21,797 nt of DNA from a virus. The DNA lies in IMG/VR virus record IMGVR_UViG_3300030105_003107, positions 1 through 21,797 of that record; one strand, 5' to 3'. Under the pieces are notes generated by a model. The model saw nothing but the letters and a program-made list of their open reading frames with translations. It made no database searches and was not told the origin of the DNA. The number at the start of each line of letters is the position of its first letter. The stretch's first letter is position 1. A program made the translations under genes and the position numbers. Of the stretch, positions 1-20,849 are shown in pieces.

Positions 1-74
1 CGGGTTTCTATTTTAAATAGGTTGTTAAAGGCTGTAAGTTTATTGCCTTTTAATCGTGGTCTAAAGTCTTTCAT
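1..74 (-). CDS. 5' part of an unidentified phage gene (runs off the left edge)
   Basis: An ATG at 74 opens a frame that stays open to the window edge (24 complete codons, starting MKDFRPRLKGNK). The fragment is basic and shows no recognisable domain. The reason to call it a gene is its start: the ATG is embedded in the promoter-like element at 74-110, exactly as in the 53-residue gene at 18522. If the element is a promoter, the mRNA would begin at or very near this ATG and have no leader. The function cannot be judged from this fragment. Confidence 0.6.
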   Translation of the reverse strand, partial: MKDFRPRLKGNKLTAFNNLFKIET

Positions 75-110
75 ATACTATATGTAAGACAAAATTTAAA
101 AGCGTGGTTA
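74..110 (-). promoter_or_regulatory. Phage promoter-like element, copy 1
   Basis: On the minus strand this reads CCACGC (107-102), 13 nt, then CTTACATATAGTATATG (88-72), whose last three bases are the ATG of the left-edge gene. The second part contains a perfect odd palindrome, CATATAGTATATG. Taking the A of ATG as +1, CCACGC falls at -33 to -28 and TACATA at -12 to -7, which is the spacing of a bacterial promoter. Bases 84-110 are identical to copy 2 (1231-1257). The upstream end overlaps the stop codon of the holin-like gene. Promoter function is inferred from repetition, spacing and position. Confidence 0.65.
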
Positions 111-1220: not shown

Positions 1221-1257
1221 CTTACTATAAGTAAGACAAAATTTAAAAGCGTGGTTA
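1221..1257 (-). promoter_or_regulatory. Phage promoter-like element, copy 2
   Basis: Minus strand: CCACGC (1254-1249), 13 nt, then CTTACTTATAGTAAG (1235-1221). Bases 1231-1257 are identical to copy 1 at 84-110. The right half is again an inverted repeat (CTTACT, 3 nt, AGTAAG), but its centre is shifted by 2 nt relative to copies 1 and 3. Unlike those copies there is no ATG at the expected start point; the next ATG lies 21 nt further on, at 1200. The element sits in the gap between the fibre gene and the lysis region. Promoter role inferred. Confidence 0.65.
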
Positions 1258-6316: not shown

Positions 6317-6360
6317 ATCTGTCCTTATATAAAGTTAGTTTAATAAATTATATAGTATTT

Positions 6361-6912
6361 TTAAAGTCCTTCGACCACCACAGTATTAGTGGTATCATTT
6401 ATAATTAATGGATCTAAAAATGAAGCAGGAGTACGCTCAGACCCCGTAAAAACAACATTATAACCGTTAAGGTCTCCCATTGCGCTCCCACTCGTTGGAG
6501 AGGGTGCAGTTTCACATCCGTTTTCTAATCCAGCTAGGACATATCTAGCATCATCAGCCAGTCCAGTATTGTAAAACTCAACGACAACTTGAGGGCGACC
6601 CCAAGATAAAATTTTCATTTCTTTTCTTGTTTGTGGATCTTGTTTTTTTAGAACAATCGTTCCTACTTGCGTGAAAAAAGACGTACCATTCTCTCTGGAA
6701 TTTTCGTTAGTTTCCTCGAAGCTATTAGCTCCTTTAAGCTGATATTTGTATAAAGTTAATGGGGAAGCAAAACCAGTAATAACTTCAGTAGTAGGATCAT
6801 AAGTAGCAGTATCTAATAAACCTTGTGTATAGTTTATAAAATAAATTGCTGTAATTCCGCCGACTGAGTCTTTACATGGTTCTAATCTGCCCAGGTTGAT
6901 ATCGCATGACAT
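6361..6912 (-). CDS. Major structural protein, probable tail tube protein
   Basis: A 183-residue, beta-rich, Gly/Thr-rich protein starting MSCDINLGRLEPCKDSVGG. Further landmarks are RENGTSFFTQVGTIVLKKQD (73-92, a long beta-hairpin), WGRPQVVVEFYN (103-114), an NGCETAPSPTSGSAMGDLNGY segment spanning about 130-150, and ERTPASFL near the end. It directly follows the capsid gene in the same block, so it must be made in quantity. The long hairpin and length fit the tail tube fold, and this type of protein recurs next to capsid genes in flavobacterial phages. A capsid decoration protein is the alternative. The tube call is inference. Confidence 0.5.
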   Translation of the reverse strand: MSCDINLGRLEPCKDSVGGITAIYFINYTQGLLDTATYDPTTEVITGFASPLTLYKYQLKGANSFEETNENSRENGTSFFTQVGTIVLKKQDPQTRKEMKILSWGRPQVVVEFYNTGLADDARYVLAGLENGCETAPSPTSGSAMGDLNGYNVVFTGSERTPASFLDPLIINDTTNTVVVEGL

Positions 6913-6942
6913 ATATATAGTATTTAAGTTAGTTATTAAAAT

Positions 6943-6964
6943 AGAGGAGCTGTTACACTCCTCT
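6943..6964 (-). terminator. Hairpin between capsid and tube genes (weak terminator or attenuator)
   Basis: Minus strand: AGAGGAG, 8-nt loop, CTCCTCT, followed by TATTTTAAT. The 7-bp GC-containing stem stands out in AT-rich DNA, but the U-tract is broken, so partial termination or mRNA stabilisation is more likely than full termination. It would allow more capsid than tube protein to be made. Confidence 0.45.
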
Positions 6965-6985
6965 TATTATTATTATTTATTATGA

Positions 6986-7918: not shown

Positions 7919-7948
7919 TTTTTTTTATTTTAGTTATTATTAAATTTT

Positions 7949-8515
7949 TTAGTTGTTGTTAAATAATTTTTCATAAACTACATCTTGAGTAGTTTTAGAT
8001 CTATTTTGACCATGTAAGTGCAAATCTTGTTTAGATTTAGCTTCAGGATTATGTTTTACAGGTTTTGATACTTCAGATAATTCTATTTCAGTAGATTCTA
8101 CTTCAATATTTTTTATTTCGTCAGTACTAAAATCTTCCTTTTCCCCAGCTCTAGATTTGAGATCCGCTACGGCATCTTCGAGGTTTTTAATTCTTTCTTC
8201 AAGCCCTCTCCAGTCCTCGATATCGGCGACTTCGGCGGCAGCATCGACTACCTCTTCCTCTTCGACTTCTACCTCTTCTCTAATCTCATCAATTATACCA
8301 TCCTCTGATACAACCAATAACATTCCGTCATCAAGTAAATACTCTCCTGCGGGAACGGCGATTCGCTCGCCATCTTCCGAAATAATGAAAACTTCTCTTC
8401 CAGATTCGAAGGCTTCAGATTCAAAGCGAGTGCCATTTTCAAGACTTCTCTCTTCGAGATTAATTTCCAAACCCAGTAAAGCTTTTACTTTGTTTAGTGT
8501 TTCTTTTGATTTCAT
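7949..8515 (-). CDS. Capsid scaffold protein
   Basis: A 188-residue, very acidic, low-complexity protein. The N-terminal helix (ETLNKVKALLGLE) and a small beta region with REVFIISEDGERIAVPAGEYLL (40-61) come first. An acidic run follows (78-97, EEVEVEEEE). Next come a coiled coil at about 101-124 (EERIKNLEDAVADLK) and a basic C-terminus with KPVKHNPEAKSKQDL and a TTQDVVYEKLF tail. Acidic coiled-coil core plus basic C-terminal capsid-binding tail, placed directly before the capsid gene, is the classic scaffold arrangement. Bases 8221-8280 and 8341-8400 are far richer in G+C (about 55% and 50% by hand count) than neighbouring genes, with codons such as GTC, GCC and CGA that are rare elsewhere. 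Confidence 0.75.
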   Translation of the reverse strand: MKSKETLNKVKALLGLEINLEERSLENGTRFESEAFESGREVFIISEDGERIAVPAGEYLLDDGMLLVVSEDGIIDEIREEVEVEEEEVVDAAAEVADIEDWRGLEERIKNLEDAVADLKSRAGEKEDFSTDEIKNIEVESTEIELSEVSKPVKHNPEAKSKQDLHLHGQNRSKTTQDVVYEKLFNNN

Positions 8516-8578
8516 ATTTATATTTATTAAGTGTTTATTTATTTAAAAACATTATTAATAATGTCTTGTTATATTTTG

Positions 8579-8621
8579 GTTAATTTTAGGCACAAAAAAA
8601 GAGATCGTTTAAGATCTCTTA
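8579..8621 (-). repeat. 43-nt direct repeat, copy B (terminator plus flank)
   Basis: Matches 6274-6316 at 42 of 43 positions. It includes the terminator and 15 nt of conserved flank beyond the T-tract. Together the copies delimit a 2.3-kb scaffold-capsid-tube cassette. Confidence 0.75.
8594..8620 (-). terminator. Intrinsic terminator before the capsid cassette
   Basis: Minus strand: AAGAGATC, a 6-nt loop, GATCTCTT and a 7-T tract. It has the same stem as the terminator at 6289-6315 and differs from it at one loop base. It closes the long tail block after the Cys-rich protein gene, 33 nt past that gene's stop, and insulates the scaffold-capsid block. Confidence 0.8.
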
Positions 8622-8652
8622 TCATATTATAAATACAAAAAACAAAATTCTT

Positions 8653-9030
8653 TTATACAGCCAAACAATTAGCACAATTAGAATAAAGCGTGAAGTTTTC
8701 TACATGAACTCCTGAATAAGCTGGGTCTCCTATCACTTCATAACAGCCATTATAGTCAGGGTTTTCAAACTCTAAATAATATGCGCTACTAATGGTCAAA
8801 GAAGAGTTATGAACATGAATGTCTTTTTGAATTCCAGAATCACATTTTAAAACTCTATAATAATTTTCATCTCCAATAGTGCTATGCCCTGTAATGTTTC
8901 CAATTCCTTCATTAATCATTTTACCATTACAGCAATTTTTTGAATAAGTATTTCCGTCAGCGCATAAGCAAGCTCGGCTGTTATTTGATGGACTAGTTCG
9001 ACTAGTGTCTTTAATTTTCTTGTATAACAT
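8653..9030 (-). CDS. Cysteine-rich hypothetical structural-region protein (125 aa)
   Basis: The protein has eight Cys in 125 residues: C21, C23, C33, C34, C63, C96, C119 and C122. The N-terminal motif CLCADGNTYSKNCCNG (21-36) and the following EGIG are a recurring signature in Bacteroidetes phage proteins, as far as I recall. The C-terminal part ends YSNCANC, giving a C-x-x-C pair. The spacing suggests metal binding or disulfides. There is no signal peptide or membrane segment. The gene starts 20 nt inside the protease gene, so it is translationally coupled to it, and it is the last gene before a terminator. It is likely a virion or tail component; the function is unknown. Confidence 0.7.
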   Translation of the reverse strand: MLYKKIKDTSRTSPSNNSRACLCADGNTYSKNCCNGKMINEGIGNITGHSTIGDENYYRVLKCDSGIQKDIHVHNSSLTISSAYYLEFENPDYNGCYEVIGDPAYSGVHVENFTLYSNCANCLAV

Positions 9031-9616
9031 CTATTACAGAATTTAATAATATTTCATCTTCACTTAATTTATCCGTTTGTTTGTCTTTGGGTTTGTTGTT
9101 TACTCTATCAATAAAATATCCCTCAATACTGAAACCGAGAATTTTTTTTGTTTGGACATAATTTTCCCAGATATCATTATTGTCTACCTTGATAGTCACC
9201 ATCCAAGTTCCAACTTTTAAATCCAGACCGTATGCTCTGCTTTTATCATGAACCTCGTCTTCAATTATCCAAGACTCAACAACAGTTATACCTTCAAGTT
9301 TTTCTTCAGAGTGTTCCATTGTAGCCTGTCCTTGATTACCAGATTTTAAATACATCTGAGAAGCTTTAGCTACAGTTTCTTTAGAAAAATAAATATAGAA
9401 TTCATGATCTTCCGATTTTCTATAAATTGGCTTATCTGGAATAAGAGCAGCACCAATTAATAATCTTTTAGATTTTGATACTTCGGCAAGTCTTATTTGA
9501 TTCTGATTTTTAAGAGCTATAAAATTCTCTTCTATAGCTGGAGATTCAACTAAACTAATAGCTTCTATTGCTGATAACTCCTCATTTTCTTCTATAATTA
9601 ATTCAATTATTTCCAT
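9011..9616 (-). CDS. Prohead protease, XkdF-like serine protease
   Basis: A 201-residue protein of the XkdF-like group. The N-terminal acidic helix (IEAISLVESPAI) is typical of this family. LLIGAALIPDKPIYR (52-66) begins the protease core. TMEHSEE (99-105) places His102, VESWII (113-118) is a core strand, and LGFSIEGYF (160-168) places the nucleophile Ser163. VDNNDIWENYVQTKKILGFS is the family's usual stretch before the serine. It should cleave scaffold and capsid N-termini during head maturation. It is encoded two genes before the scaffold, although the tape measure gene precedes it directly, which is unusual. The C-terminal tail is charged and probably disordered. Confidence 0.8.
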   Translation of the reverse strand: MEIIELIIEENEELSAIEAISLVESPAIEENFIALKNQNQIRLAEVSKSKRLLIGAALIPDKPIYRKSEDHEFYIYFSKETVAKASQMYLKSGNQGQATMEHSEEKLEGITVVESWIIEDEVHDKSRAYGLDLKVGTWMVTIKVDNNDIWENYVQTKKILGFSIEGYFIDRVNNKPKDKQTDKLSEDEILLNSVIDVIQEN

Positions 9617-9659
9617 TGGTATTGTTTTTATTAAAAACCCTTTTTAGCATATATTGTTA

Positions 9660-12236
9660 TTATCCTAATGTTGATCCTTGTATTATGTTATTTTGCAAAC
9701 TCTGTGCGCTAGTTACGTCTTGTGAAACTACAAAAGCTTGAATCGGTGCTTGATTCCCTAACGCACTCGCTATTTGGTTAGTTCCTGAAGTTCCGAAAAT
9801 ATCAAAATTAGGAGATTCTGGCTCTGGCAATGTGTCACTAATAGCGGCTGTTGTAGGAACTGAAATATCTCCACCAGCAGACCCTCCCCCGAAGCTACCC
9901 GCAGCACTTTGAGATTTTCTTTTACTTTGGTTTATGCTTTTCACTATAGAAATAGCTTGAGCTGCAAACATAGCTATTGGAACTAAATTCCATGGTGGTG
10001 CTAAACTACTTGCTGCTTTAGCTGATCCTTTTGCTACTTCCCCTCCAGCCTCTGCGGCATTCAGTTGAGCGGATATTATAACATTTTTAGCTTTCATTAC
10101 TAATTCTTTTAATGCTATAGCTTGTTTAGCAATAAATAAAGCTCTGCCGATTTTGGATTCTCTTCCCGCTGCATTAATAGTAGCGTTTAAAGTGTCATTA
10201 AGTAATTTCTTTTTAGTTTTAACTAAATCTTTCTCCTCTTTATCTTCTTTATCTATCTTTTTTTGTCTAACATCCTCAATTTTATTAGCGTAAAATAATT
10301 TTATTTGAGCTAGTTGGTCTTCGTGTGCATCTAAATCTATTAACTCTTGTAACTCCTTCTCTCTTTTTGCCTCTAATTTTAAAATTTCGTCTTCCTCAAA
10401 TTTTGCCATTTTATCGGATAACTTTTCTGCTTTTTTTTCATCAGCTAGAACCTCTTCTTGATCATAAAAATCATTTACAGTCTTTATTAATTCCTTCTTT
10501 TCTTTAATTGTAGCTACAGATGCATTAATATCAGCTATATCTCTTTCCCTTTTCCTCTTAAGTTTATCTTCGGCATCCAGATCTAATTGATCTTCAGATC
10601 TTTTATTGAATTTATTACGCAACTTTTGAACTGCTTCTAATCTTTTCTTTTCGGCGGCTAACTCCTCAGCAGTTTGTATTTTTATCTCCCCTAATAGTGC
10701 CGCATCAGCTTTAGCTTTAGCTGCTGCTTCTCTTTTCCTAGCTTTTCCAGCTTGTTCTAGTTTAAAATTTTCAAATACATTGAATAATCTTGACATACTT
10801 TGATTTTCAATTTCTACTCCAATTCTAAACTGCTTATTTGCATCTAATAGCATATCCTGAGCCTTTTTTAAATTTTCCTTTACCGCTTCAAGATCTATAG
10901 ATTTGCCTAATATTGGGACTTTCTCCATCTGGATTAAAGAATTAGCTGCAAATTTAGTTATTATCCCCTCTAACCCTAGAAAAATACCTCTTCCAAAAGC
11001 TAAGGCAGCAGCTCCTTTTCCTGACATATTCTTAACCCATTCATTAAAGGCAAAGCTTACTATTTGTAATGCAAGAGTTATATCTGAAATAGATCTTGTC
11101 ATATTTTGTAATACATCTCTCATGATAAAATTCAAAATTCCATCTCCATCCTCTAACTGTAATAAAAAGCCTTCCCATGCACTACTTAATTTTAATACAT
11201 CTCCACCAACATTATCAAGTTTCATTTCTGCAAGTCTTCCAGCAGCACCTTCAGCGTTTTCTAATGCTTTTGTCATATTCGTTAAAGCTTCAGGTCCAGC
11301 TTTTGCTAAGGCTAATAATGCTGGTCCACCTTGTTTGCCAGTTAATTCCATTGCAGTATTAAGTCCATCCGCAGAATTTGAAACCATATCCATTCCCTCC
11401 ATTAAAGTCAGGTTTCTTTTGTTTAATTCAATAAAAACATTTTTTAAAGCAGTACCTGCCAAACTTCCATCAATTGTATTATCTGCTAAAACTGCTAGAA
11501 TTGCTGTAGTTTCTTCAATGCTAGCTCCTACAGCATTTGCTACTGGACCAACTTTTGAAAGTGCCTCACTTAAAGTATTAAAATTTAAACCTGATAAGTT
11601 AGTAGATAATGCCATTGAATCAACAATTCGTTGAGCATCTTGAGTGTCTAATCCAAAGGCTCTAATTGTACCCCCAGCAAATTTTGCGGCTGTTCCTAAA
11701 TCAATTTCTAAGGCAGCAGCTAAATCTAATGTAGCTCCAGTTGTATTTAGTATTTCTGTAGTAGTAAAACCAAGTTTTGATAAATTAGTTTGCAGTTCTA
11801 AAACTTGTGAAGCGGTGAAGGAAGTAGTAGACCCTAATGTTTTGGCTTGTTTAGTTAAAGCCTCCATATCATCATCAAGCACTTGGGCGGACTCTGCTGT
11901 TCCAGCTAAGACTGCTTTTAAATTAGATGTAGATTTTTCAAAAACTATTGATGCTTTAGCTGCGGCAATAAAAAGCGTAGCTAATGCCCCAATAGCTACC
12001 ACTACAGCTCCAACTCCTGTTGAAATTAACTGTGTTTTTAAGACTTGTAAGCCACCTATTAAGCTAGGTATAACAGTACCTCCAAATATACCAAAGGAAG
12101 TGCTTAAACTAGTTGCTGCGGCTGTTCCTGCTACTCCAGTTTTTTTTAAATCTTTGTTTAGCTTTTTAGTATTAGCTTGGGCGGATTTTGTGTTAGTAGT
12201 TACATTTACTACTATTTCTTGTTTTTGTACAGCCAT
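9660..12236 (-). CDS. Tail tape measure protein
   Basis: At 858 residues this is the longest protein in the window. It has an N-terminal helical region, then a hydrophobic Gly/Ala-rich segment at about 72-94 (TGVGAVVVAIGALATLFIA). A TP901/PhageMin_Tail-like core follows (about 100-350, with the LSEALSKVGPVANAVGAS and GTALKNVFIEL motifs). Long charged coiled coils occupy roughly 500-690 (KRKRERDIADINA, KLEAKREKELQEL), and a second hydrophobic patch near 750-775 (NLVPIAMFAAQAISIV) precedes a Gly/Ser-rich tail. The protein sets tail length; at about 0.15 nm per residue, it predicts a tail of roughly 130 nm, consistent with a long flexible siphovirus-type tail. Its start overlaps the stop of the 51-residue gene (TAATG). 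Confidence 0.9.
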   Translation of the reverse strand: MAVQKQEIVVNVTTNTKSAQANTKKLNKDLKKTGVAGTAAATSLSTSFGIFGGTVIPSLIGGLQVLKTQLISTGVGAVVVAIGALATLFIAAAKASIVFEKSTSNLKAVLAGTAESAQVLDDDMEALTKQAKTLGSTTSFTASQVLELQTNLSKLGFTTTEILNTTGATLDLAAALEIDLGTAAKFAGGTIRAFGLDTQDAQRIVDSMALSTNLSGLNFNTLSEALSKVGPVANAVGASIEETTAILAVLADNTIDGSLAGTALKNVFIELNKRNLTLMEGMDMVSNSADGLNTAMELTGKQGGPALLALAKAGPEALTNMTKALENAEGAAGRLAEMKLDNVGGDVLKLSSAWEGFLLQLEDGDGILNFIMRDVLQNMTRSISDITLALQIVSFAFNEWVKNMSGKGAAALAFGRGIFLGLEGIITKFAANSLIQMEKVPILGKSIDLEAVKENLKKAQDMLLDANKQFRIGVEIENQSMSRLFNVFENFKLEQAGKARKREAAAKAKADAALLGEIKIQTAEELAAEKKRLEAVQKLRNKFNKRSEDQLDLDAEDKLKRKRERDIADINASVATIKEKKELIKTVNDFYDQEEVLADEKKAEKLSDKMAKFEEDEILKLEAKREKELQELIDLDAHEDQLAQIKLFYANKIEDVRQKKIDKEDKEEKDLVKTKKKLLNDTLNATINAAGRESKIGRALFIAKQAIALKELVMKAKNVIISAQLNAAEAGGEVAKGSAKAASSLAPPWNLVPIAMFAAQAISIVKSINQSKRKSQSAAGSFGGGSAGGDISVPTTAAISDTLPEPESPNFDIFGTSGTNQIASALGNQAPIQAFVVSQDVTSAQSLQNNIIQGSTLG

Positions 12237-12391
12237 TAGTTTTTAATTCTAGTAATGTATTTAAAATATCTTTTCAATTGAGTAAAGCCAAATCTCCAAG
12301 TCTCAGGGATTTTATATTTTCCTTTAGCAATTTCAATGGTTTCTGTTTCTCCATAGTAATTATAAGCACGTAATAATTTAAATATCTCCAT
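12236..12391 (-). CDS. Small basic hypothetical protein before the tape measure (51 aa)
   Basis: A frame from the ATG at 12391 to the TAA at 12236-12238 encodes 51 residues (starts MEIFKLLRAYNYYG, contains YKIPETWRFGFTQLKRYFKY). It begins 6 nt after the tail-tip gene and its stop overlaps the tape measure start (TAATG), so it is almost certainly translated as part of the tail operon. It is basic and aromatic. No family is recognised; it may be a small tail component or chaperone by position. Confidence 0.65.
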   Translation of the reverse strand: MEIFKLLRAYNYYGETETIEIAKGKYKIPETWRFGFTQLKRYFKYITRIKN

Positions 12392-12397
12392 TTAATT

Positions 12398-14569
12398 TTA
12401 TGTTAATACAGATGCCGTGTAATTGGTCTGTTTAGTTAGTAATTCTAATTCGCTTTTTTGCGTTGTTAGGTTTGTTTTAATGCTGTTTATATAATAAGCT
12501 TGACCATTTATAATTAACGTATCGTTTAATTGGTAATTCAGTAATATATTCATCGGCAACATTGCTGTAAACTTTACTATTCTTGACTGTTCCTCAAATG
12601 ATTGTATGATATATTGAGAATAAAATCTAGAAAATAAAGAGTTTTCATTGGTTTCATCTGTGTATTCATCAATTTCAATACCAAAATTTAAAGTATGTGA
12701 TCCTGTTTCACTCACATTTGAAGGAGCATTATAATGAGTCCATTGCTGAGATAATATTGGTTTGGTAGTAGTGTCTACTCTTCTATTAAAAAAGAAGTAA
12801 GGCTTGCCTAAGACTGTTTTAGCGGGTATATCTTGATTAACCCACCAGCCGTAAACTATTCCAGTTATTATTATCGTATTATATTCCTTTATATTTATTA
12901 AAGATTCTCTTTGGCTAGGAACTTGCAGAGTAAATGTTTTACCATCGTACTTTTCAGGAGCTGAATATTTTAAATTTCCCATCTGCAACCCGTTAGCGTT
13001 TATAAATCTTAAACTAGGTTGAGTTATTGCTGGAGCATATTCAAAATTTATATTTGAAAATGGAATATTTCTATCAACTGTATTTTTATTTACATCTATA
13101 TATTTAGAAATATTATATTCATTTCCAATAGTCATGTAGTCGTCTAATGTTTGAATATATATTTTTTTAGATCCTCTTATTGAGTAGGCTGTTAGATTAA
13201 ACATTTTTAAAAGAGTAGTAAGATAATCTAGCACCCTCATTTTAGGAACATAATTTTGAATCCAAATATCAGGAAAATTAGTTACTGGAAAACTAGTTCC
13301 TCCAAAGTCCGATTGCCAATTCCCTATAGATGTAATTCCATCAGTATCAGTTAACGTAATACTTAAAGCTGTTGCAGTTATACTTTCCCAAGAAGTTTGC
13401 GTAGGAGTTTGAGTTCTAATTTCCAAATCATATACCCTGCTTTCCAAAGTACCTGAAGTTATATCTCTAATAGTTAAAGTATTATTAACGGCTGCAAGAT
13501 TTGAAACATTTGTTTGAGTCCAAATAATTTCTCCAGATATTTTATCTACAACAGTAACGTTAAATAAAAAGTCTGAAATTGTATTTTTTAAAATAACTCT
13601 TATGGCTGCAACCTCTCCCTGATTAACAGTAAATTTTCCAGCCGAATCTAAAAAGGTGCTTGGTAAGCTGCCGCTTAAATAATTATAATAGGTATTTCCT
13701 AAATTCCATTTAGCCCCATAAAAATCAAAGTTAACTCCCCAAACAGGTGGATCTTCCTCTGGCAAAGTTGATGAAGTTGCTTCTCTGTGAAGCCACAAAT
13801 ATAATTCATCAAAAACACGACTGCCAAAAAAGGATTTAATTGTTTTACCATTTATGACTTCATCGGTCATATTAAACTCAACATCATAATGATCTTGAAT
13901 AGCTTCAATAATTAATCTAGATTTTATCGCTGGTTTTAATTGATCTTGAAGACCTAATTCAGCACCTGGGGTGTTAGGTGTAAACCAACTATCTGAATAT
14001 AAATTTCCATACGTTATAGAATCGGTTGGATCATATCCATAATATTTATTTAAACTAACTAAAGGCAAAGTAATATTTCTATCGGATAGTGAGGTAGCAA
14101 CTACATTATTGAATTTTAATCCATATCTAAACGCATCCTCCATATTAGTTCCGCTTCTGCTAAAATCATAAACTGATAATGGCTCTAAAGCATCTAAATT
14201 ATCTTCCCCGAACAATTCTTTTATTAAAACGGTATCACTATAAAAAACAATTTTATAAGTGTATGCCTTATTATCTCTTAAATCTATAGAGTTAAGCACT
14301 ATCTGCCCACTTCTAAAATCACTCCCATTCATTTTAATTAAAGAGTCTACTCTAAACCTTGCATCAAATCCATTGATTATATCATTATTATAATAGTGCT
14401 TAAATAATTTTGAATTAGTAGGAGAAGCTGGTAAACTAAACCTTTGAGTAAATGGACTGTAGACTTTACTAATATCATTAATGTTTTGAATAGAATCCGT
14501 CAATGTTATTGATTCGTCTTTAAACAGATCTACTCTTACTCCCTCTATATAAAGTTCAACAGTGTTCAT
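12398..14569 (-). CDS. Tail-tip / tail-associated protein (Tal-like hub)
   Basis: A 723-residue, beta-rich protein. The N-terminus (VRVDLFKDESITLTDSIQNIND then KVYSPFTQRFSLPASPTN) is the typical opening of the large tail-tip proteins of Bacteroidetes phages, with DFRSGQIVLNSIDL soon after. The middle (about 250-430) looks like a beta-sandwich insertion with Thr/Ser-rich strands. The C-terminal part ends with FTAMLPMNILLNYQLND and an INGQAYYINSI strand, a closing module seen in baseplate hub / Tal proteins. It probably forms the tail tip that contacts the cell. Unusually it is transcribed before the tape measure. It overlaps the upstream gene by one base (TAATG). Confidence 0.65.
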   Translation of the reverse strand: MNTVELYIEGVRVDLFKDESITLTDSIQNINDISKVYSPFTQRFSLPASPTNSKLFKHYYNNDIINGFDARFRVDSLIKMNGSDFRSGQIVLNSIDLRDNKAYTYKIVFYSDTVLIKELFGEDNLDALEPLSVYDFSRSGTNMEDAFRYGLKFNNVVATSLSDRNITLPLVSLNKYYGYDPTDSITYGNLYSDSWFTPNTPGAELGLQDQLKPAIKSRLIIEAIQDHYDVEFNMTDEVINGKTIKSFFGSRVFDELYLWLHREATSSTLPEEDPPVWGVNFDFYGAKWNLGNTYYNYLSGSLPSTFLDSAGKFTVNQGEVAAIRVILKNTISDFLFNVTVVDKISGEIIWTQTNVSNLAAVNNTLTIRDITSGTLESRVYDLEIRTQTPTQTSWESITATALSITLTDTDGITSIGNWQSDFGGTSFPVTNFPDIWIQNYVPKMRVLDYLTTLLKMFNLTAYSIRGSKKIYIQTLDDYMTIGNEYNISKYIDVNKNTVDRNIPFSNINFEYAPAITQPSLRFINANGLQMGNLKYSAPEKYDGKTFTLQVPSQRESLINIKEYNTIIITGIVYGWWVNQDIPAKTVLGKPYFFFNRRVDTTTKPILSQQWTHYNAPSNVSETGSHTLNFGIEIDEYTDETNENSLFSRFYSQYIIQSFEEQSRIVKFTAMLPMNILLNYQLNDTLIINGQAYYINSIKTNLTTQKSELELLTKQTNYTASVLT

Positions 14570-15618
14570 TATCTTATGTTATTAATTGTGTCAAAAGCAA
14601 AACTTACATTAATAGAGTAATTTATTAATCCCTCTGTAAGACTTGTTTTATAATTAAAGCTTTTACTATCTATGTTAACCCCTAATGTTTGACCACCGTA
14701 ATAAATCCAAACACTTTCACTTAAAAACAATTGCTTAAATATTTGGTTATATCTCTCTGGATAGAAATCACTATTAAGAGTTAATCTTTGCTTTGCGTTT
14801 TTTGTAAGTGTTTTAATTTGTGGATCGTTTATTTCATACGTTCCATTTGTTAAAATATTTGATTTATAATTATCTTGTGTGGTACTCATTTTTAATTTAG
14901 AATTGCCAAACATCCAGATCTCTTGGTATGCTCCGAACTTATTAATAAAAGTTAATTTGTAAGGAGAATATTTACATTTATCATAGGAGGTTATATCTAT
15001 AGTCCTAGAAGTAGCTCCATCAGCTATAACAGCTTGATCAACATCAAAATTACCTGTATTGGTAACATAAGTAATTTGATCTTCTATATCTGCTTGTGTT
15101 GTAATAGCTACTGTTGAAACTGTTGCTCCTTGATATTTCCAATCTAGAAATGTAGCAAGTGTATTATCAACAGGAATTGTTACTGTTTCATTAGTGTTTT
15201 TAAGTATTCTAAGATTCGATTGTAAAACATAATTATCTAATGCTGGGTTAGCCCCCTCTTCAAAATATCCATAAGCATAAAATGCTCTATCCCCTAAAGT
15301 TTCAACTGGAGTTTGTGAAACAGTTCCTATTGTTTCTGTAATTTTATAATCAACGTTAACTGTTGTAGCTTCGCTACTAGATACCGCAGGAGTTGGAAAT
15401 GTTCCATTAAATAAAGCGGTTATATAATCTGCAATTAATTCAGCTATTTCAAAATTTATCTTTTCGTTTATAGCTGTAGAAACTAAAGTATATTGCGGTG
15501 AGTCCTGCCAGTCTGTATTTGCTTCCCCTAAATAGATCTCTATTTCAAGTTTTGCAGAAGTTAGATTAGTATTTGATAGGTTTATAAAGTATGGGCTACG
15601 TACGTTAATTTTTGCCAT
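14569..15618 (-). CDS. Tail-tip structural protein (possible distal tail protein)
   Basis: A 349-residue, beta-rich protein with N-terminal strands (INVRSPYFINLS, KLEIEIYLG) and a Thr/Val-rich middle (about 80-200). The conserved-looking C-terminal part contains SPYKLTFINKFGAYQEIWMFG (234-254) and YPERYNQIFKQLFLSESVWIY. The N-terminus RSPYF has counterparts in Bacteroidetes phage structural proteins encoded just before the large tail-tip protein. By position next to the Tal-like gene it could be the distal tail (Dit) equivalent or a tip-bound fibre base. Start and stop overlap the neighbouring genes by single bases, so the expression is coupled. Structural nature is fairly sure; the precise role is not. 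Confidence 0.55.
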   Translation of the reverse strand: MAKINVRSPYFINLSNTNLTSAKLEIEIYLGEANTDWQDSPQYTLVSTAINEKINFEIAELIADYITALFNGTFPTPAVSSSEATTVNVDYKITETIGTVSQTPVETLGDRAFYAYGYFEEGANPALDNYVLQSNLRILKNTNETVTIPVDNTLATFLDWKYQGATVSTVAITTQADIEDQITYVTNTGNFDVDQAVIADGATSRTIDITSYDKCKYSPYKLTFINKFGAYQEIWMFGNSKLKMSTTQDNYKSNILTNGTYEINDPQIKTLTKNAKQRLTLNSDFYPERYNQIFKQLFLSESVWIYYGGQTLGVNIDSKSFNYKTSLTEGLINYSINVSFAFDTINNIR

Positions 15619-16214
15619 TATATTTTAATGTTTTTTTTATTTTTATTTTCTTTTTTTATAAATGCCCCAATATCTTTGCCAATAGCTTCACCAATTAATT
15701 TGCCGAATCCTTTATAAGCATATCTAAAAGCTCTTGTAAAAAATAAAGTAGGAGCTATTCCCTGGTGATAAATACTGTTTTGTAAAATAAAGGCTATGGT
15801 TGTATAATTTCCTTTTTTATATTTTCCGTCTTTATCTCGTAGTCTTATGTTTCGTTTCTTTGCCCATTGTTTTAAATCCTTCATGGGAGGTCTTTTGTCC
15901 TTATAACTAAAAGGACTAAAGGGAGCTTGTTGTTTCCCTTCTCTCTGGTCATTGTTTTTGTACATTTCTTCAGGAGATGCGCCTTTAACTCCTAAGTCAA
16001 TAAATGATCCGTATTTATCCATTAAAACATTTAGATCAATACCTTTATCACCTACATATGTTCTGTATTTAATACTTCTAGATAATTGTCCCGTAGCATT
16101 TACAGACTTCTTTTTTCCTCTTCTCTTTTTTAAATTCTTTTTAGCTTGTGTAGTAATTTTTCTACCTAAAGACTGTAAAGCTTTTCTAAATTGGATATAG
16201 TCTTTGCTTAACAT
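15618..16214 (-). CDS. HK97 gp10-like tail completion / neck protein
   Basis: A 198-residue, strongly basic protein. The N-terminal helix region (IQFRKALQSLGRKITTQAKKNLKKRR) is followed by ATGQLSRSIKYR (40-51) and then YGSFIDLGVKG (68-78). PPMKDLKQWAKKRNI and AFILQNSIYHQGIAPTLFFTRAF complete the layout. The order SRSI, Y-x-x-F-(I/V)-x-x-G, then W-x-x-x-(K/R) and I-x-x-x-G-I-x-P-x-x-F is the HK97 gp10 / tail completion pattern. Such proteins act at the head-tail junction or tail terminator. It overlaps the preceding gene by 7 nt. Confidence 0.7.
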   Translation of the reverse strand: MLSKDYIQFRKALQSLGRKITTQAKKNLKKRRGKKKSVNATGQLSRSIKYRTYVGDKGIDLNVLMDKYGSFIDLGVKGASPEEMYKNNDQREGKQQAPFSPFSYKDKRPPMKDLKQWAKKRNIRLRDKDGKYKKGNYTTIAFILQNSIYHQGIAPTLFFTRAFRYAYKGFGKLIGEAIGKDIGAFIKKENKNKKNIKI

Positions 16215-16681
16215 ATAGTCATATCGTTAGGGATTTCAACATCAAAGCTGCAAGTCCAGCCACAGAGTTTGTTTTCAAATCTATCTACGAAAGGCTCTAA
16301 AAATGGACTTGATCCTTCCGCTATTTGATATAGATCACTATATAAGTCTCCTCTTCTTAACAACTCTAAAAGTCTATTAACTACTGCTAGTTGAGTATTA
16401 AATACATCCTGTTCATTATTGTTCCCTCTAAATTTGCCAGGGTTACCAGTTGCAAAATCTTTACTTTCGTTTACTATATCCATGCATAATAAATTAATGG
16501 AAAAGCTCCAAACCCTGCCATTTAAAGTAGCAGAAGAAACCATAAAATGACTCAATGGGAATATAGTTTGTTTATCTAAATCAACTGAAAACAAATCACC
16601 GTAGCTAACGGTTTTTACATTTACATCTAGTTCTAGAGTTTCTTGTATTTTTTCAGTTAGATTATAAAATCCTTGTAGCAT
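16208..16681 (-). CDS. Tail completion / tail terminator-like protein
   Basis: A 157-residue alpha/beta protein. An N-terminal helix (GFYNLTEKIQETLE) leads to a VKTVSYGDLFSVDLDKQTIFPL strand region spanning residues 22-43, then NGRVWSFSINLLCMDIV. A central NTQLAVVNRLLELLRRG helix (114-130) and a closing strand (GWTCSFDVEIPNDMTIC) follow. This helix-strand-helix-strand layout with the IFPLSHF segment matches a small protein recurrent in Bacteroidetes phage tail operons, resembling tail terminators (lambda gpU type). Its start shares one base with the T-extension stop. The role is inferred from layout and neighbours. Confidence 0.55.
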   Translation of the reverse strand: MLQGFYNLTEKIQETLELDVNVKTVSYGDLFSVDLDKQTIFPLSHFMVSSATLNGRVWSFSINLLCMDIVNESKDFATGNPGKFRGNNNEQDVFNTQLAVVNRLLELLRRGDLYSDLYQIAEGSSPFLEPFVDRFENKLCGWTCSFDVEIPNDMTIC

Positions 16682-16959
16682 TATTTTCTTTTTAAAATTA
16701 AACTTTCTATTTGCCCCTTTTCCTTTTCAAAAGCTAGGTACATTAAACAGGAATGAAGCCTAAGCTTTGTTACCTCTTCAAACTTTGTAATATCTCCTTT
16801 AGCAAGAGTATATAACTCTGCATAGCCTCCCCAGCGGATTGTAAATCCGTCTCTGATGTCTGGTAGTTGGTTTGCGAGTCCCTGTTCTTCTCCAACTCCT
16901 GTTTGTTCTTCTCCAAATAACTCTGGATACAACTTAGCAAGTCTCTTATTAAACGATAA
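16681..16959 (-). CDS. Tail assembly chaperone T extension, reached by -1 frameshift
   Basis: This frame is -1 relative to the chaperone G gene and has no good start of its own: the first usable codon is a TTG at 16932 and no ATG occurs before the middle of the domain. After slipping at the T9 run, translation would continue with LSFNKRLAK into YPELFGEEQ and give 92 extra residues. The result is a 249-residue fusion (157 + 92) against 219 for G alone. The core, FTIRWGGYAEL then AKGDITKFEEVT and CLMYLAFEKEK, is a compact helical domain like the T domains of Bacteroidetes phages. By analogy with lambda gpGT it would bind tail tube subunits and load them on the tape measure. It ends exactly at the next start (TAATG). 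Confidence 0.7.
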   Translation of the reverse strand, partial: LSFNKRLAKLYPELFGEEQTGVGEEQGLANQLPDIRDGFTIRWGGYAELYTLAKGDITKFEEVTKLRLHSCLMYLAFEKEKGQIESLILKRK

Positions 16960-17429
16960 AAAAAAACCGAAGCTCCTAAAGCTATATCTAGTGGCATCTC
17001 TTTTAATTGGTCAGAGTAAAAATGAGATCCCTCATAAGGTTCTATTAAATACTTTTCACCTATTTTTTTAGTTATAGGTCTATATAATACAGCCATTGCT
17101 TTATGCATATTACCCCATTCTGAAAGGTATTTAGTAATGTCCTTGTTTTCTCCGTATGTGATCTCATCGAGATTAGGAATGAAACCGTATGTAATACCAT
17201 TTAAAGTAAAGTTTTTTATTAATGGAGTTTCTACATCAAACATTTTTTTTGATGCTTCTACCAAAAATTCATAGTCAGCTTGTTTAATATGTTTTACATG
17301 ACCTCTTTGGATGTCTAATAAGCACACTATAGAATCTTCATCTGTAGGGTTTTCTTTAGTTATTAAAGATTGATACTTATGTAAAGGAATATCTCTTAAT
17401 GTATTTGGGACTGGTATTTTTACCTCCAT
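16770..17429 (-). CDS. Tail assembly chaperone G
   Basis: A 219-residue protein starting MEVKIPVPNTLRDIPLHKYQ. The opening V-x-V-P-x-x-L-x-D-I-x-L-x-x-Y-Q and later KEMPLDIALGASVFFYRLI (143-161) match tail assembly chaperones of Bacteroidetes phages. It would keep the tape measure soluble during tail assembly. Frame 0 continues for 62 codons past the slippery site and ends with LQSAGEAMQSYILLLKEILQSLK, which looks like a real conserved end, so both frames seem to be under selection in the overlap (16770-16959). It is the first gene of block 3, after the terminator at 17455-17484, preceded by the shared 16-nt leader and no Shine-Dalgarno sequence. Confidence 0.75.
   Translation of the reverse strand: MEVKIPVPNTLRDIPLHKYQSLITKENPTDEDSIVCLLDIQRGHVKHIKQADYEFLVEASKKMFDVETPLIKNFTLNGITYGFIPNLDEITYGENKDITKYLSEWGNMHKAMAVLYRPITKKIGEKYLIEPYEGSHFYSDQLKEMPLDIALGASVFFYRLIRDLLSCIQSYLEKNKQELEKNRDSQTNYQTSETDLQSAGEAMQSYILLLKEILQSLKR
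16958..16966 (-). other. -1 ribosomal frameshift slippery site (T9)
   Basis: In frame this reads GTT TTT TTT TAT, so the heptamer T TTT TTT fits X XXY YYZ exactly at codons 155-157 of chaperone G. It is the best slippery site in the region where both frames are open. Slippage by -1 gives TTA TCG as the next codons and enters the T frame. No strong downstream pseudoknot was recognised by eye. Confidence 0.65.
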
Positions 17430-17438
17430 TTAAAATGT

Positions 17439-17454
17439 CTTTATTTAAAAACAC
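17439..17454 (-). repeat. Shared 16-nt leader element before the tail block
   Basis: GTGTTTTTAAATAAAG on the minus strand, identical to 6243-6258. It directly follows the T-tract of the terminator and ends 9 nt before the ATG of chaperone G. It is a candidate promoter segment or A/T-rich translation-initiation leader. Confidence 0.4.
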
Positions 17455-17484
17455 AAAAAGGGTAATGTTGTATAACATACCCCC
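17455..17484 (-). terminator. Intrinsic terminator after the sigma-like factor gene
   Basis: Minus strand: GGGTATGTT, GTAT-type loop, AACATTACCC with one bulged base, followed by TTTTT. It lies 22 nt past the stop of the sigma-like gene and separates it from the tail block. The bulge makes it weaker than the other terminators, so read-through into the tail genes is likely. Confidence 0.65.
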
Positions 17485-17505
17485 TTTATATAATTGTTGT
17501 TAATA

Positions 17506-18078
17506 TTAAATTAAATCATAATCTTTATTTATATAGTCTTCATAATCTTCTGAGAATTTATCCTTCATTATCTTTTTTCCTCTTTTTAAAGTGTGGAATA
17601 TATTTACCCAGCTTATATTAGTTTCTTTAGCAATTCCTCTAATACTGAGAGGAGTATCTCTGTATATTTCAAAAATCCTTTTGTCGTACCAATGCCAATT
17701 ATTCATTTCGTTATCCATCTTAGTTATAAGGGAGTTATAACCTTCCTCTCTATCCAAACTATTATCTTCTGTAAACTTCTCTAAAAGTCTAATGTCAATC
17801 TCTTTAACATCACAGCTCTCAAATAAAAAGCTTTCAATTTGTTCTTTATACACTCCCTTATTAGTTTTCATATAGGTAACAAATACAGATCTTAAAACAA
17901 AGAACATATAGCCCTTACTAACTTTACCCTTATTAATTATTTTGTTTTCACAGTTGTATTTTTCTAATTTAATATAGGACTCCATTACAATATCCTCACT
18001 ATAAGATTTACCTCCTAAGCTTTCAACAATATGAACCCACTCCTTGTGGTATCTAAAAACTTTAGTAATCCATTTCAT
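17506..18078 (-). CDS. Phage sigma-70-like RNA polymerase sigma factor
   Basis: A 190-residue protein with two sigma-like parts. Residues 8-70 resemble region 2 (HKEWVHIVESLGG then SEDIVMESYIKL, 27-38, the characteristic EDIVQE-type helix). Residues 133-175 form a region-4 helix-turn-helix (KRIFEIYRDTPLSIRGIAKE then TNISWVNIFHTLKRGKK). A charged linker of about 60 residues separates them, and there is no region 1 or 3, as in ECF-size factors. It would redirect host RNA polymerase to phage promoters. The start overlaps the previous stop (ATGA). Its operon begins at promoter-like copy 3, whose CCACGC box differs from the host consensus, so it is the natural candidate reader of that element. The family is fairly sure; the target is inference. 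Confidence 0.75.
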   Translation of the reverse strand: MKWITKVFRYHKEWVHIVESLGGKSYSEDIVMESYIKLEKYNCENKIINKGKVSKGYMFFVLRSVFVTYMKTNKGVYKEQIESFLFESCDVKEIDIRLLEKFTEDNSLDREEGYNSLITKMDNEMNNWHWYDKRIFEIYRDTPLSIRGIAKETNISWVNIFHTLKRGKKIMKDKFSEDYEDYINKDYDLI

Positions 18079-18374
18079 ATAGTTTTCATAAATATTGGCG
18101 CAAAATCTTTTACAGTACTTATTTCTTTAATGTATTCGTCTAGATAGATTAATGATTCGTCAAAGTCTAATTGGTTATCCTCATCTCCAATTTTTAATAA
18201 AATGTTAATACATTCCCAATAGTTGTATATTATTTTTTTAGGAAATTGAGTAGTTATCCCTACTATAGCATCGTCAAACCCTTCAGCTAAAACCAAAGTC
18301 TCATCTTCACATAAATAATTCCTTTCATATAAACCAGAAAGTAATTTAACATCGTCCTTATTATTCAGTTTCAT
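18075..18374 (-). CDS. Hypothetical protein with EGFDDAIVGI motif (99 aa)
   Basis: A 99-residue acidic protein. The central segment LVLAEGFDDAIVGITTQF followed by KKIIYNYWECINILLK, then an acidic loop and an ESLIYLDEYI helix, matches a recurring small phage protein pattern (GF-(D/E)-(D/E)-A-x-x-G-I, Y-x-x-x-x-x-I-x-I-L) that I know only as unannotated. It is co-transcribed with the sigma-like factor and overlaps both neighbours (14 nt upstream, 4 nt downstream), so it is part of the same unit. A role as partner or modulator of the sigma-like factor is possible but not shown. Confidence 0.7.
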   Translation of the reverse strand: MKLNNKDDVKLLSGLYERNYLCEDETLVLAEGFDDAIVGITTQFPKKIIYNYWECINILLKIGDEDNQLDFDESLIYLDEYIKEISTVKDFAPIFMKTI

Positions 18375-18522
18375 TAGCTTGCTCTTCAGTAGTAATCTCT
18401 TCTGTAAGTTCTAGTTTATCTAATCTTCTACGTAATACATCTATAGCAACATATAGTTGGGCGGATACGTTTTCTAGTATTGCAAATCTTTCCTTTGTGG
18501 TGTGTTTCTTTTTATGACTCAT
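18361..18522 (-). CDS. Small coiled-coil-like protein (53 aa), probably from leaderless mRNA
   Basis: A frame from the ATG at 18522 to the TAA at 18361-18363 encodes 53 residues (starts MSHKKKHTTKERF). It has a basic head, a helical middle with heptad-like leucines (ENVSAQLYVAIDVLRRRLDKLEL) and an acidic tail. The ATG is the last triplet of promoter-like copy 3, so an mRNA starting at the promoter would have no leader. It overlaps the next gene by 14 nt. Small coiled-coil proteins are common ahead of regulatory genes in phages, but no function is recognised. Confidence 0.65.
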   Translation of the reverse strand: MSHKKKHTTKERFAILENVSAQLYVAIDVLRRRLDKLELTEEITTEEQANETE

Positions 18523-18557
18523 ATACTATATGTAAGAGCTTATATAATAGCGTGGTC
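18522..18557 (-). promoter_or_regulatory. Phage promoter-like element, copy 3 (start of the sigma operon)
   Basis: Minus strand: CCACGC (18555-18550), 13 nt, CTTACATATAGTATATG (18536-18520). The 17-nt right part is identical to copy 1 and the 13-nt spacing is preserved although the spacer sequence differs, so box identity and spacing, not general similarity, are conserved. The ATG of the 53-residue gene sits at the same position as in copy 1. It lies 14 nt after an intrinsic terminator, exactly where a new promoter is needed. This is the best single piece of evidence that the element is a promoter. Confidence 0.7.
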
Positions 18558-18570
18558 GAAAAGTTTATAA

Positions 18571-18600
18571 TAAAAAAAACCCATGCGTAGTTAACATGGG
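18571..18600 (-). terminator. Intrinsic terminator closing the terminase block
   Basis: Minus strand: CCCATG, 9-nt loop, CATGGG, followed directly by eight T. It lies 32 nt past the stop of the ribbon-helix-helix-like gene and immediately ahead of promoter-like copy 3, so it separates two transcription units. Confidence 0.85.
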
Positions 18601-18632
18601 CTTGTTTGGGAATAAAAGGGGTATTGTTTACA

Positions 18633-18761
18633 CTATTTAGATTTCTTTACCTTGTCTTCTATTACATCTTCTAAATAGGTTTTAAAAGGTTTGTTTTCTT
18701 TGGCTGCTAAAACCTTTAACGGCACAAGTAGTTCGTCTTTAATATCGATTAGTTTTCTCAT
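18633..18761 (-). CDS. Ribbon-helix-helix-like small DNA-binding protein (42 aa)
   Basis: A frame from the ATG at 18761 to the TAG at 18633-18635 encodes 42 residues. It follows the Arc/CopG plan: a short N-terminal strand (KLIDIKDE), a first helix (LLVPLKVLAAKEN), a turn with KPFK, and a second helix (TYLEDVIEDKVKK). Such proteins dimerise, insert the paired strands in the major groove, and usually repress promoters carrying palindromic operators. The ATG overlaps the previous stop (ATGA). It is the last gene before the terminator and promoter-like copy 3, whose right half is palindromic, making that element a possible target. Alternatively it is an antitoxin-like remnant; no toxin is adjacent. 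Confidence 0.6.
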   Translation of the reverse strand: MRKLIDIKDELLVPLKVLAAKENKPFKTYLEDVIEDKVKKSK

Positions 18762-18970
18762 GAGTTACAATGTTTGCTAAATTCTCTTGTGTTTAATTGA
18801 AATGAAGTTCCGTTCATGCATACAGGATTCTCCTCACATAATTCATAATCATGAGTACCATCTTCTTTTTGATAAGGAATAGAGATATCTCTAGCCATCA
18901 TATTTAATAATTGGCATTTTTCTTCTGGTGTTGTGTTGTTGTAAAATTCTAATATTTTTGAGATGCTCAT
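18758..18970 (-). CDS. Hypothetical protein (70 aa)
   Basis: A 70-residue protein: an N-terminal helical part (ISKILEFYNNTTPEEKCQLLNMMARD) and a C-terminal part with three Cys (CEENPVC and KHC). The TPEEKCQLL segment resembles a helix-capping motif seen in many small regulatory proteins but is not diagnostic. It overlaps the ribbon-helix-helix-like gene by 4 nt. No function is recognised. Confidence 0.6.
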   Translation of the reverse strand: MSISKILEFYNNTTPEEKCQLLNMMARDISIPYQKEDGTHDYELCEENPVCMNGTSFQLNTREFSKHCNS

Positions 18971-18990
18971 AATGTTTATTTGTTTAGTTA

Positions 18991-19257
18991 TTAAATAAAT
19001 TCTTTGTATAGTTCTAAATTTTCTTCAAATGTTAATCTAGTACTATAAGAATACTTTAATCTTTTTTCTCTATTGTTTTTATTTTCTCCTTGGATAGTAT
19101 AATCGCCTATTACTTCACTCATTAAATCTAAGTGCATATCGGACTTACCATCTAGATCTAAATCAAATTCAATAAATGTATCATAAACCTCTTTTTGTTT
19201 TGATGGTCTTAAATCTCTCATTTGATGTCTATACTCGTGATTCCAAAAATTATTCAT
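18991..19257 (-). CDS. Hypothetical protein (88 aa)
   Basis: An 88-residue charged protein starting MNNFWNHEYRHQMRDLRPSK, with an acidic middle (DTFIEFDLDLDGKSD) and a basic patch (KNNREKRLKYSYSTRL). No domain, membrane segment or family is recognised. It begins after a 71-nt AT-rich gap holding a possible host-type promoter, so it may start its own small transcription unit with the two genes behind it. Confidence 0.6.
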   Translation of the reverse strand: MNNFWNHEYRHQMRDLRPSKQKEVYDTFIEFDLDLDGKSDMHLDLMSEVIGDYTIQGENKNNREKRLKYSYSTRLTFEENLELYKEFI

Positions 19258-19280
19258 AATGTACGTTTTTAATTATAGTA

Positions 19281-19310
19281 CAATATACAACATATATACG
19301 ATATATACAA
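19281..19310 (-). promoter_or_regulatory. Possible host-type promoter
   Basis: Minus strand: TTG (19310-19308), 20 nt, TATATTG (19287-19281), 24 nt before the ATG at 19257. This is near the Bacteroidetes primary-sigma pattern (-33 TTG, -7 TAnnTTTG) but one base short. The spacer is an AT palindrome-like run. In DNA this AT-rich such matches arise easily, so confidence is low. Confidence 0.3.
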
Positions 19311-19328
19311 GCTTTTTATAAAAAACTT

Positions 19329-19646: not shown

Positions 19647-20849
19647 TTAATAAATATGATATTGTCCTTGATTTGGATTCTGTAGTTGGTAGGAAACGCT
19701 ATATCTAAGTCCATCAAGAAGATGATTGAACTTATCTATTGGAGTTCTTGATTTCTTCTCAAGCCAACAATAGTTGTTTAGTTCCTTAACAAGATTTAAA
19801 CTTTCTGGATCAATTACTAAATCAAAATCTTGTAATAGACTTATTCCAAAGGTTATAGAGCCTTGCCCTTTTATAGCTGGAACTATATTACAATCTCTTG
19901 ACAATTCGCTTATCAGTCTTGGCTCTGCGGAGTCAGCAACTATTAGATTATCTTTTGCAAATCTTTGGTTAAGATGCGCTATTTGTGAAGTGGTTAAATG
20001 TGTTTGATGAATACACTCTTTAACATAAATAATCTTATTGTTCTTGTCTATGCTGGTTTGTACTAATGTAGTAGGATCATTACTAAATCCAAAATCTTGA
20101 CCATATACAGAAGTTGCTATTTCTTTAAACTCTCCTAGCTTCCAATTAGAGAATATAACTCCTTCCGCTTTATCTAGCCATCCTCCTAACATTTGATGCT
20201 TATACTTTTCTGGTCTATGCTTTTTGATCTCTGCTATTCTGTTTAAATAACTTTGAGATAGATTTTCTATATTGTCTTTATAAGTTGTATGTACATAACA
20301 CACATCTTTAGTTTTAATATTGATACCAGCTTGTATTCCTTGGCTTTCAAAAAACCTCTCATAAATCCAATGTTCTTTTGTAGTAGGGTTTAAGATTAAT
20401 ATTATTCTATTATCTTTTCCTTTTTGTCTTACGGATAAATCTATCTTATCAAATATATCTTCATCTACTAACTCTTCAGACTCATCCATTACCCATGTCG
20501 TAATGCCTTGTAATGATTTTAGATTAGCTGTTTGATCTCCAGAGGATGTTTTGATTCCTCTAAATAATATCTTGCTTCCTGTGGATTTATTTATAATCTC
20601 ATCTTTAGTTGTATAAAAGTTATTTTCATAACCGAGCATTTCAATCTTCTCTTTAAATTCTGGAATAATAGAAATGTTAGCTGATCGTAAAGTGTATCTA
20701 GTAAATAATACATTATGCCCAGACTCTGTCATTATTAAAAGCAGTAGACTAGTAGCTACTCCAAATGATTTACCTGATCCTCTACCGCCAGTAAATATAA
20801 AATACCTTGTATCTACTTCATCCCAAACTAAAAACTTCTTATTAATCAT
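19647..20849 (-). CDS. terL: Terminase large subunit (ATPase and nuclease)
   Basis: A 400-residue, full-length TerL of the Terminase_3 type. The ATPase part has Walker A GGRGSGKS (21-28), an adenine-region arginine stretch RYTLRS (51-56), Walker B TTWVMDESEE (117-126, with catalytic Glu123) and the coupling motif LNPT (153-156). The RNase H-like nuclease has Asp252 (QDFGF), Asp306 (VADSAEP) and Asp379 (NHLLDGLRY), all three metal-binding acids present. It cuts concatemers and pumps DNA into the prohead through the portal. It overlaps the TerS gene by 8 nt. Its last residues, NPNQGQYHIY, resemble the portal's end, NPQGQY. Confidence 0.95.
   Translation of the reverse strand: MINKKFLVWDEVDTRYFIFTGGRGSGKSFGVATSLLLLIMTESGHNVLFTRYTLRSANISIIPEFKEKIEMLGYENNFYTTKDEIINKSTGSKILFRGIKTSSGDQTANLKSLQGITTWVMDESEELVDEDIFDKIDLSVRQKGKDNRIILILNPTTKEHWIYERFFESQGIQAGINIKTKDVCYVHTTYKDNIENLSQSYLNRIAEIKKHRPEKYKHQMLGGWLDKAEGVIFSNWKLGEFKEIATSVYGQDFGFSNDPTTLVQTSIDKNNKIIYVKECIHQTHLTTSQIAHLNQRFAKDNLIVADSAEPRLISELSRDCNIVPAIKGQGSITFGISLLQDFDLVIDPESLNLVKELNNYCWLEKKSRTPIDKFNHLLDGLRYSVSYQLQNPNQGQYHIY

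Follow-up and report, generated by a model that had tools for sequence, protein, structure and literature searches.

The 21.8-kb stretch of viral DNA analysed here (the window), which forms a virus record by itself, encodes a predicted ECF-like sigma factor and carries three copies of a two-box, promoter-like element, one of them before the sigma operon. We consider it probable that these are parts of one system, in which a phage ECF-type sigma factor, borne by the host core polymerase, reads the three elements as the phage's own late promoters. In the proposed mechanism, region 4 of the sigma factor would recognize the −35-like box, which reads ACCACGC here and AACA(C) in the majority of relatives, region 2 would recognize the −10-like box, and in most copies the transcript would begin at the start codon or close to it. 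We infer sigma activity, transcription start sites, late timing and the identity of the sigma factor that reads the element from sequence, the timing because the genes behind the elements are tail and lysis genes.

The late genes of the window lie almost throughout on the minus strand and encode terminase, tail, tape measure, protease, capsid-like, portal and fibre proteins, an M15 endolysin and a holin. Among the matches listed, the closest cultured phages by terminase are the Nonlabens phages P12024L and P12024S (56%), which places the window with the marine flavophages. P12024L (Inhavirus) is a cultured member of this group, and the terminase search found at least hundreds of uncultured relatives. 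The annotation of P12024L, a complete cultured relative, contains no RNA polymerase gene, the single-subunit T7 type included; the window is an incomplete genome.

Positions 1–19320 of the window are 99.85% identical, over 19.3 kb of late region, to another record (G001, IMGVR_UViG_3300030059_002152), the terminase of which differs abruptly from that of the window (only 29% identity); a recombination junction between the two lies near window position 19320. In the terminase search, OQ791282.1 (Shigella phage Henu10) gave a match of the Riemerella phage type, with the same identity and coordinates as ON933637.1, and its Shigella host label therefore looks doubtful. Two relatives (L250 and L255; G005 and G059) have a gene that resembles, by eye, a Bacteroidota tyrosine recombinase and lies 3′ of their metallophosphatase-like homologue of the gene behind element copy 1, hinting that the clade of the window may be temperate.

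Table 1. Features of the window that bear on the proposed sigma–promoter system (coordinates are window positions)
Feature	Position	Strand	Details
Element copy 1	72..109	−	AACCACGC 109-102; CTTACATATAGTA 88-76; ATG 74-72
Element copy 2	1221..1256	−	AACCACGC 1256-1249; CTTACTTATAGTA 1235-1223
Terminator-like hairpin + T5	17452..17490	−	Immediately 3′ of the sigma gene and ahead of the tail operon; −15.8 kcal/mol, folded stretch
Predicted ECF-like sigma factor of 190 aa (the 'downstream' sigma)	17506..18078	−	Profile, fold, relatives
99-aa protein, phrog_13182	18075..18374	−	4-nt overlap with the sigma start
53-aa first gene of the sigma operon	18361..18522	−	
Element copy 3	18520..18556	−	−35-like ACCACGC 18556-18550; −10-like CTTACATATAGTA 18536-18524; ATG 18522-18520
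Terminator-like hairpin + T8	18577..18603	−	Just upstream of copy 3; −12.6 kcal/mol, folded stretch
Terminase large subunit (TerL)	19647..20849	−	Used for phage-group placement and for finding relatives

A predicted ECF-type sigma factor in a small operon

The predicted sigma factor matches the NCBIfam profile TIGR02985 over nearly its full length (residues 10–174, E = 7.8e-6), though it stays below the curated NCBIfam cut-offs. Against TIGR02937 (sigma70-ECF) it scores 15.6 bits, under the curated cut-off of 42.9, and the same profile matches all 28 of its aligned relatives (best 2.4e-12). Pfam Sigma70_r2 was matched in four of these 28, and searches of the window protein against Pfam and PHROGs gave weak matches only. 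An AlphaFold model (pLDDT 78, pTM 0.43) consists of two helical domains with a linker of low confidence between them. The top Foldseek matches of this model in the PDB are all ECF sigma factors (best E = 1.7e-3, probability 1.0), including SigH and SigL of M. tuberculosis, SigE of E. coli, Bartonella RpoE, SigW and AlgU, aligned at 10–15% identity over about 172–191 alignment columns. The global TM is low, as would follow from a free placement of the two domains. With sigma2 and sigma4 in 190 amino acids and neither region 3 nor region 1.1, the protein has the architecture of the ECF sigma factors (group IV, about 160–210 amino acids). We take the product to be an ECF-like sigma factor, as predicted from sequence and model, which bears out the sigma-70-like protein that the first-pass annotation had placed in the operon starting at copy 3.

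Within its clade the protein is 55–64% identical to the other downstream sigma factors. A tblastn search with three sigma factors of this family against 50,697 phage records (E 0.01) gave no match. Bacterial genomes of 84,980 species contained just three distant relatives (23–29% identity), so the hosts are not readable from prophages.

The sigma gene is the third of an operon of overlapping genes (53, 99 and 190 amino acids, in that order) that is flanked on both sides by terminator-like hairpins. No anti-sigma family match was recognized for the two neighbours, and elsewhere the homologue of the 99-aa gene occurs away from sigma. In one-sigma relatives this homologue lies within the late tail operon (G007:4325-4675; G008:17821-18108), and the gene was therefore probably moved as the sigma operon formed. 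A suspicion that these homologues reflected profile drift in the iterated search was dropped when a single-pass search confirmed them. Homologues of the 53-aa gene lie 2–3 kb from the single sigma gene of other phages (G037–G045). Another terminator-like hairpin of the window, 36 nt long and with a conserved tail (GAGATCTTAAmCGATCTCTTTTTTTGTGCCTAAAAT), occurs in two near-identical copies before two structural genes (about 8583-8619 and 6278-6314, minus strand).

The two-box element in the window and in relatives

The hexamer CCACGC, which the first-pass annotation had put forward as the promoter motif, does occur exactly three times in the window, against 0.94 expected; 5 of 100 shuffles reach three, and the count by itself is mildly unusual and weak evidence. 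The extended element is beyond chance. It consists of ACCACGC, a spacer and CTTACwTATAGTA, the latter at a fixed spacing in all three copies and followed one nucleotide later by an ATG in copies 1 and 3. At least 33 of 36 bases match between copies 1 and 2. A PWM scored the copies at 32–44 bits and the reversed window at no more than 1.4, the window copies themselves being part of the training set. What remains of the earlier motif is thus the two-box element, and the hexamer as its core is rejected: it is the spelling of the upstream (−35-like) box in one lineage. Copy 2 precedes a small ORF (ATG at 1200), then the M15 endolysin and holin genes. The window edge truncates the gene behind copy 1; the homologue that relatives carry is metallophosphatase-like by eye, and gene 17 of P12024L is annotated with a metallophosphatase domain.

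Nearly all relatives carry a two-box element at matching late-gene positions, behind the terminase and ahead of one or two groups of genes that come later. The −35-like box is spelled CCACAC, CTACAC, GGACAC, GGACGC, CTACAA, AACAC or AACAAA, and the −10-like box CTTAC, CGTAC or GTTA, followed by an A+T run. Individual genomes have their own versions: AGTACACTTT..TTGTACATATAGTATG in G008, GGAAACAC..CGTATTATATATA in G011, ATAACACT..TTTACATTA in G010, ATAACGATTC..CGTTTATA in the G016 group and AACAAA..TTCGTTAATATAGTATG in P12024L. A first PWM missed distant groups and was replaced by self-comparison and a nearest-neighbour search; the PWM or nearest-neighbour scores of the relatives' elements exceed those of reversed-sequence controls. 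In the P12024L record, in which promoters are unannotated, a de novo search by expectation maximization returned six copies, each directly before an annotated coding sequence of the late or structural cluster (leave-one-out score 73, against 22 for shuffled sequence). None lies before the P12024L sigma gene (gene 35).

In 111 of 142 element hits the ATG falls at one of four adjacent offsets; close relatives are among the contigs that gave these hits, which are therefore non-independent. Some copies, such as window copy 2, lie well before the start codon. ECF spacing together with these offsets leads us to predict leaderless transcripts or very short leaders. Many relatives have AAC-type −35 and CGT(A/T)-type −10 boxes about 15 nt apart, the corresponding boxes of the window being ACCACGC and CTTAC, an ECF likeness that was judged by eye. 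An AAC −35 box and a CGT −10 box are the typical look of bacterial ECF promoters, as in the consensus promoters of SigW and SigE.

Searches of G037–G043 and G048–G057 turned up no clear element of this kind. After the terminase, six of these phages (G037, G038, G039, G040, G041 and G043) have instead three TTTAACA-like repeats, about 10–12 nt apart, at two places per genome. Their sigma factors are 56–60% identical to that of the window, as are the single sigma factors of G037–G043 as a whole, and the repeats are possibly the site of another activator. The upstream sigma gene described below has a further copy of the element within its coding sequence (TATAACGATTCTTTAAATAAAGCGTTTATATATAA, L018:9-55), and so it has in G016, G018, G021, G022, G023, G025, G027, G029, G030 and L019. 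This copy is nearly invariant at the nucleotide level, amid neighbouring codons that vary, and is closely like the post-terminase element; it could drive the terminase genes.

Element coherence, two sigma genes and candidate readers

Elements at unlinked sites of one genome are more alike than elements of different genomes. When the post-terminase site was compared with other sites of the same genome and of other genomes, in ten representatives, similarity was 0.79 within and 0.52 between genomes (0 of 20,000 permutations). A trans-acting reader would be the simplest cause of this coherence. Partial Mantel tests in 23 phages, a set that omits two-sigma phages and so covers the upstream sigma and single downstream-type sigmas and not the window's sigma directly, gave 0.76 for element and sigma given TerL (0 of 3,000) and 0.08 for element and TerL given sigma. 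In 17 phages with the upstream-type sigma only, and in ten representatives, sigma keeps 0.61–0.85 when set in turn against 11 late proteins, and the other protein takes −0.26 to 0.19; as the partial Mantel test is liberal and the phages share ancestry and are mostly uncultured contigs, we place weight on this consistent contrast and not on p-values. The comparison of related phages that the first-pass annotation had suggested as a check thus came out as co-variation of factor and motif (partial r of about 0.76), a relation that the other 11 proteins do not share. Coherent, non-host elements at late genes that track a phage sigma factor are also what is seen in dedicated late promoters of the phiEco32 or 7-11 type.

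The window's sigma gene is one of two in its clade. Nearly all relatives with enough sequence have a sigma gene upstream of the terminase, and both an upstream and a downstream sigma are present in G001, G003, G005 and L142, with the end of the upstream one visible in L008. The window stops before the expected place of its own upstream sigma gene, which we infer to lie just past the right edge. In a tree, the upstream copies group with the sigma factors of G006–G008, and the downstream copies stand apart, near the single sigma factors of other phages; that of P12024L, a single copy, is very distant and on a long branch. Several phages whose single sigma factors lie near the downstream copies also have homologues of the 53-aa operon gene. 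From the tree and these homologues, the downstream sigma looks acquired rather than freshly duplicated. An element lies 306–463 nt upstream of it in all 11 clade members examined, and in one-sigma relatives the same promoter-like element is directly before the tail operon. This position, and the hairpins that bracket the operon in the window, suggest that the downstream sigma is under the control of the element.

These data allow us to weigh whether the elements belong to a phage sigma factor at all. They might be ordinary host promoters or translation-start features that share sequence, and most do overlap or abut start codons. This reading is quite improbable, given that none of the three window copies matches a regular expression for the Bacteroidota TTG/TAnnTTTG pattern, that the spelling shifts coherently by genome and with sigma, and that some copies, window copy 2 among them, are well before the start codon. 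The absence of the host pattern and the coherence within genomes agree with the earlier proposal of a phage sigma factor with a non-host promoter of its own. It is more improbable still that gene conversion or recent copying, and not a shared reader, makes the elements of a genome alike: window copies 1 and 2 are near-identical over 27 nt, as copying would predict, but the likeness is confined to the element, the flanks differ, and the divergence of the elements goes with that of sigma and not with that of other proteins.

If a phage sigma factor is the reader, the accounts of which one it is differ in likelihood. We tentatively favour a relay. The upstream sigma, encoded before the terminase genes, would be the likely ancestral reader and would start late transcription from leaderless or nearly leaderless promoters. 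The downstream sigma belongs to another phage lineage, and its small hairpin-bracketed operon follows the first late promoter; it would be made once the late promoters fire and would most simply read the same element, so that a horizontally acquired second sigma locks in late transcription by positive feedback, with sigma and promoter co-evolving across this large and nearly uncultured group of marine phages. The first-pass annotation had drawn a simpler loop, in which the window's sigma is the sole reader of CCACGC and turns on its own operon along with the lysis genes and the gene at the left edge. The element before the sigma operon in all 11 clade members stands in its favour, as do the coherent elements of similar layout in the five phages in which only a downstream-type sigma was detected (G046, G047, G052, G053 and G058). 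Exclusive reading by this sigma does not hold up as well: a second sigma exists in the clade, elements in other spellings occur in phages whose only sigma is of the upstream type, element similarity among two-sigma phages fails to track the downstream sigma (r of −0.64 and −0.71, against 0.07 and 0.28 for the upstream sigma, figures that single out neither sigma), and the loop must be started by some other factor. That phages lacking the factor carry the motif, which the annotation had named as refuting, weakens an exclusive pairing, but those phages have a homologous sigma. We regard the loop in this form as unlikely, and self-activation by the window's own sigma copy as likely enough to test.

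The upstream sigma might instead read all of the elements alone, with the downstream sigma directed to a different, unrecognized promoter class or to host promoters. Upstream-type sigma factors track the element where they are the sole sigma, and G037–G043, which have the single sigma factors nearest to the downstream sigma, show other upstream sequences. Yet a second coherent promoter class was not recognized in the window, and in the two-sigma clade the upstream sigma has a diverged region 4 that lacks the conserved W(F/Y)D motif, which is still present in the downstream sigma. We judge this one-reader cascade possible but doubtful, and keep to the relay as our working account. An argument for the downstream sigma as reader from a natural domain swap was rejected. 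In L011 and L142, sigma2 and the linker are replaced and the −10 box changes from CTTAC to CGTAC; another L142 site keeps CTTAC, so that the one-base change is not genome-wide, and L012 breaks the pattern. By our own count on the sequences, the upstream sigma of L011 and L142 is about 97% like that of L009.

Significance and comparison with known sigma systems

If the proposed system is real, it would give a readable transcription programme for abundant and nearly uncultured marine flavobacterial phages, with late promoters predictable from sequence, and a clear example in which phage late promoters control a second sigma. The natural series of sigma–promoter pairs would be ready material from which to learn how regions 2 and 4 of ECF sigma factors select their boxes, and a source of candidate orthogonal sigma–promoter parts. 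No promoter study of this phage group, and no account of this promoter class, of a second sigma under the first late promoter or of leaderless starts, was found in the literature searched, with subscription journals mostly outside it. The earlier claim that the combination is undescribed for the group stands to that extent for the promoters; a sigma gene of the group was already on record, as P12024L gene 35 is annotated with Sigma-70 region 2.

Phage sigma systems for middle or late genes are familiar from T4 (gp55) and SPO1 (gp28, gp33 and gp34), which share with our proposal the idea of a phage sigma cascade; their promoters are unrelated, and T4 activation is clamp-dependent. Bacterial ECF sigma factors such as SigE, SigW and SigH have the same sigma2 and sigma4 fold, and by eye the AAC/CGT-type boxes of many relatives resemble theirs. 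Autoregulation is common among ECF sigma factors. The window's sigma differs from them in being phage-borne and very divergent, with no recognized anti-sigma gene and with boxes that drift between phages. Closer by group is P12024L, with its Sigma-70 region 2 protein and six similarly arranged elements ahead of late genes, although its sigma is very distant and single-copy.

Phage sigma factors with their own late promoters are already known, and the best matches to the proposed system are gp47 of phage 7-11 and gp36 of phiEco32 (PMC8948821). The phiEco32 sigma, like that proposed here, redirects the host polymerase to middle and late genes; it acts at promoters with a single box (tAATGTAtA) and lacks homology to region 4, whereas the system described here has two boxes and a region 4 (PMC8948821). 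The late element of 7-11 differs from that of the related phiEco32, and their sigma factors differ too (PMC8948821). Set alongside by description, 7-11 offers the nearest likeness, a phage-encoded sigma (gp47) with bipartite promoters (GTAAtg-16-aCTA) upstream of late genes; it differs in its enterobacterial host, its box sequences, its one sigma factor and its experimentally mapped promoters, where ours are predicted from sequence (PMC8948821).
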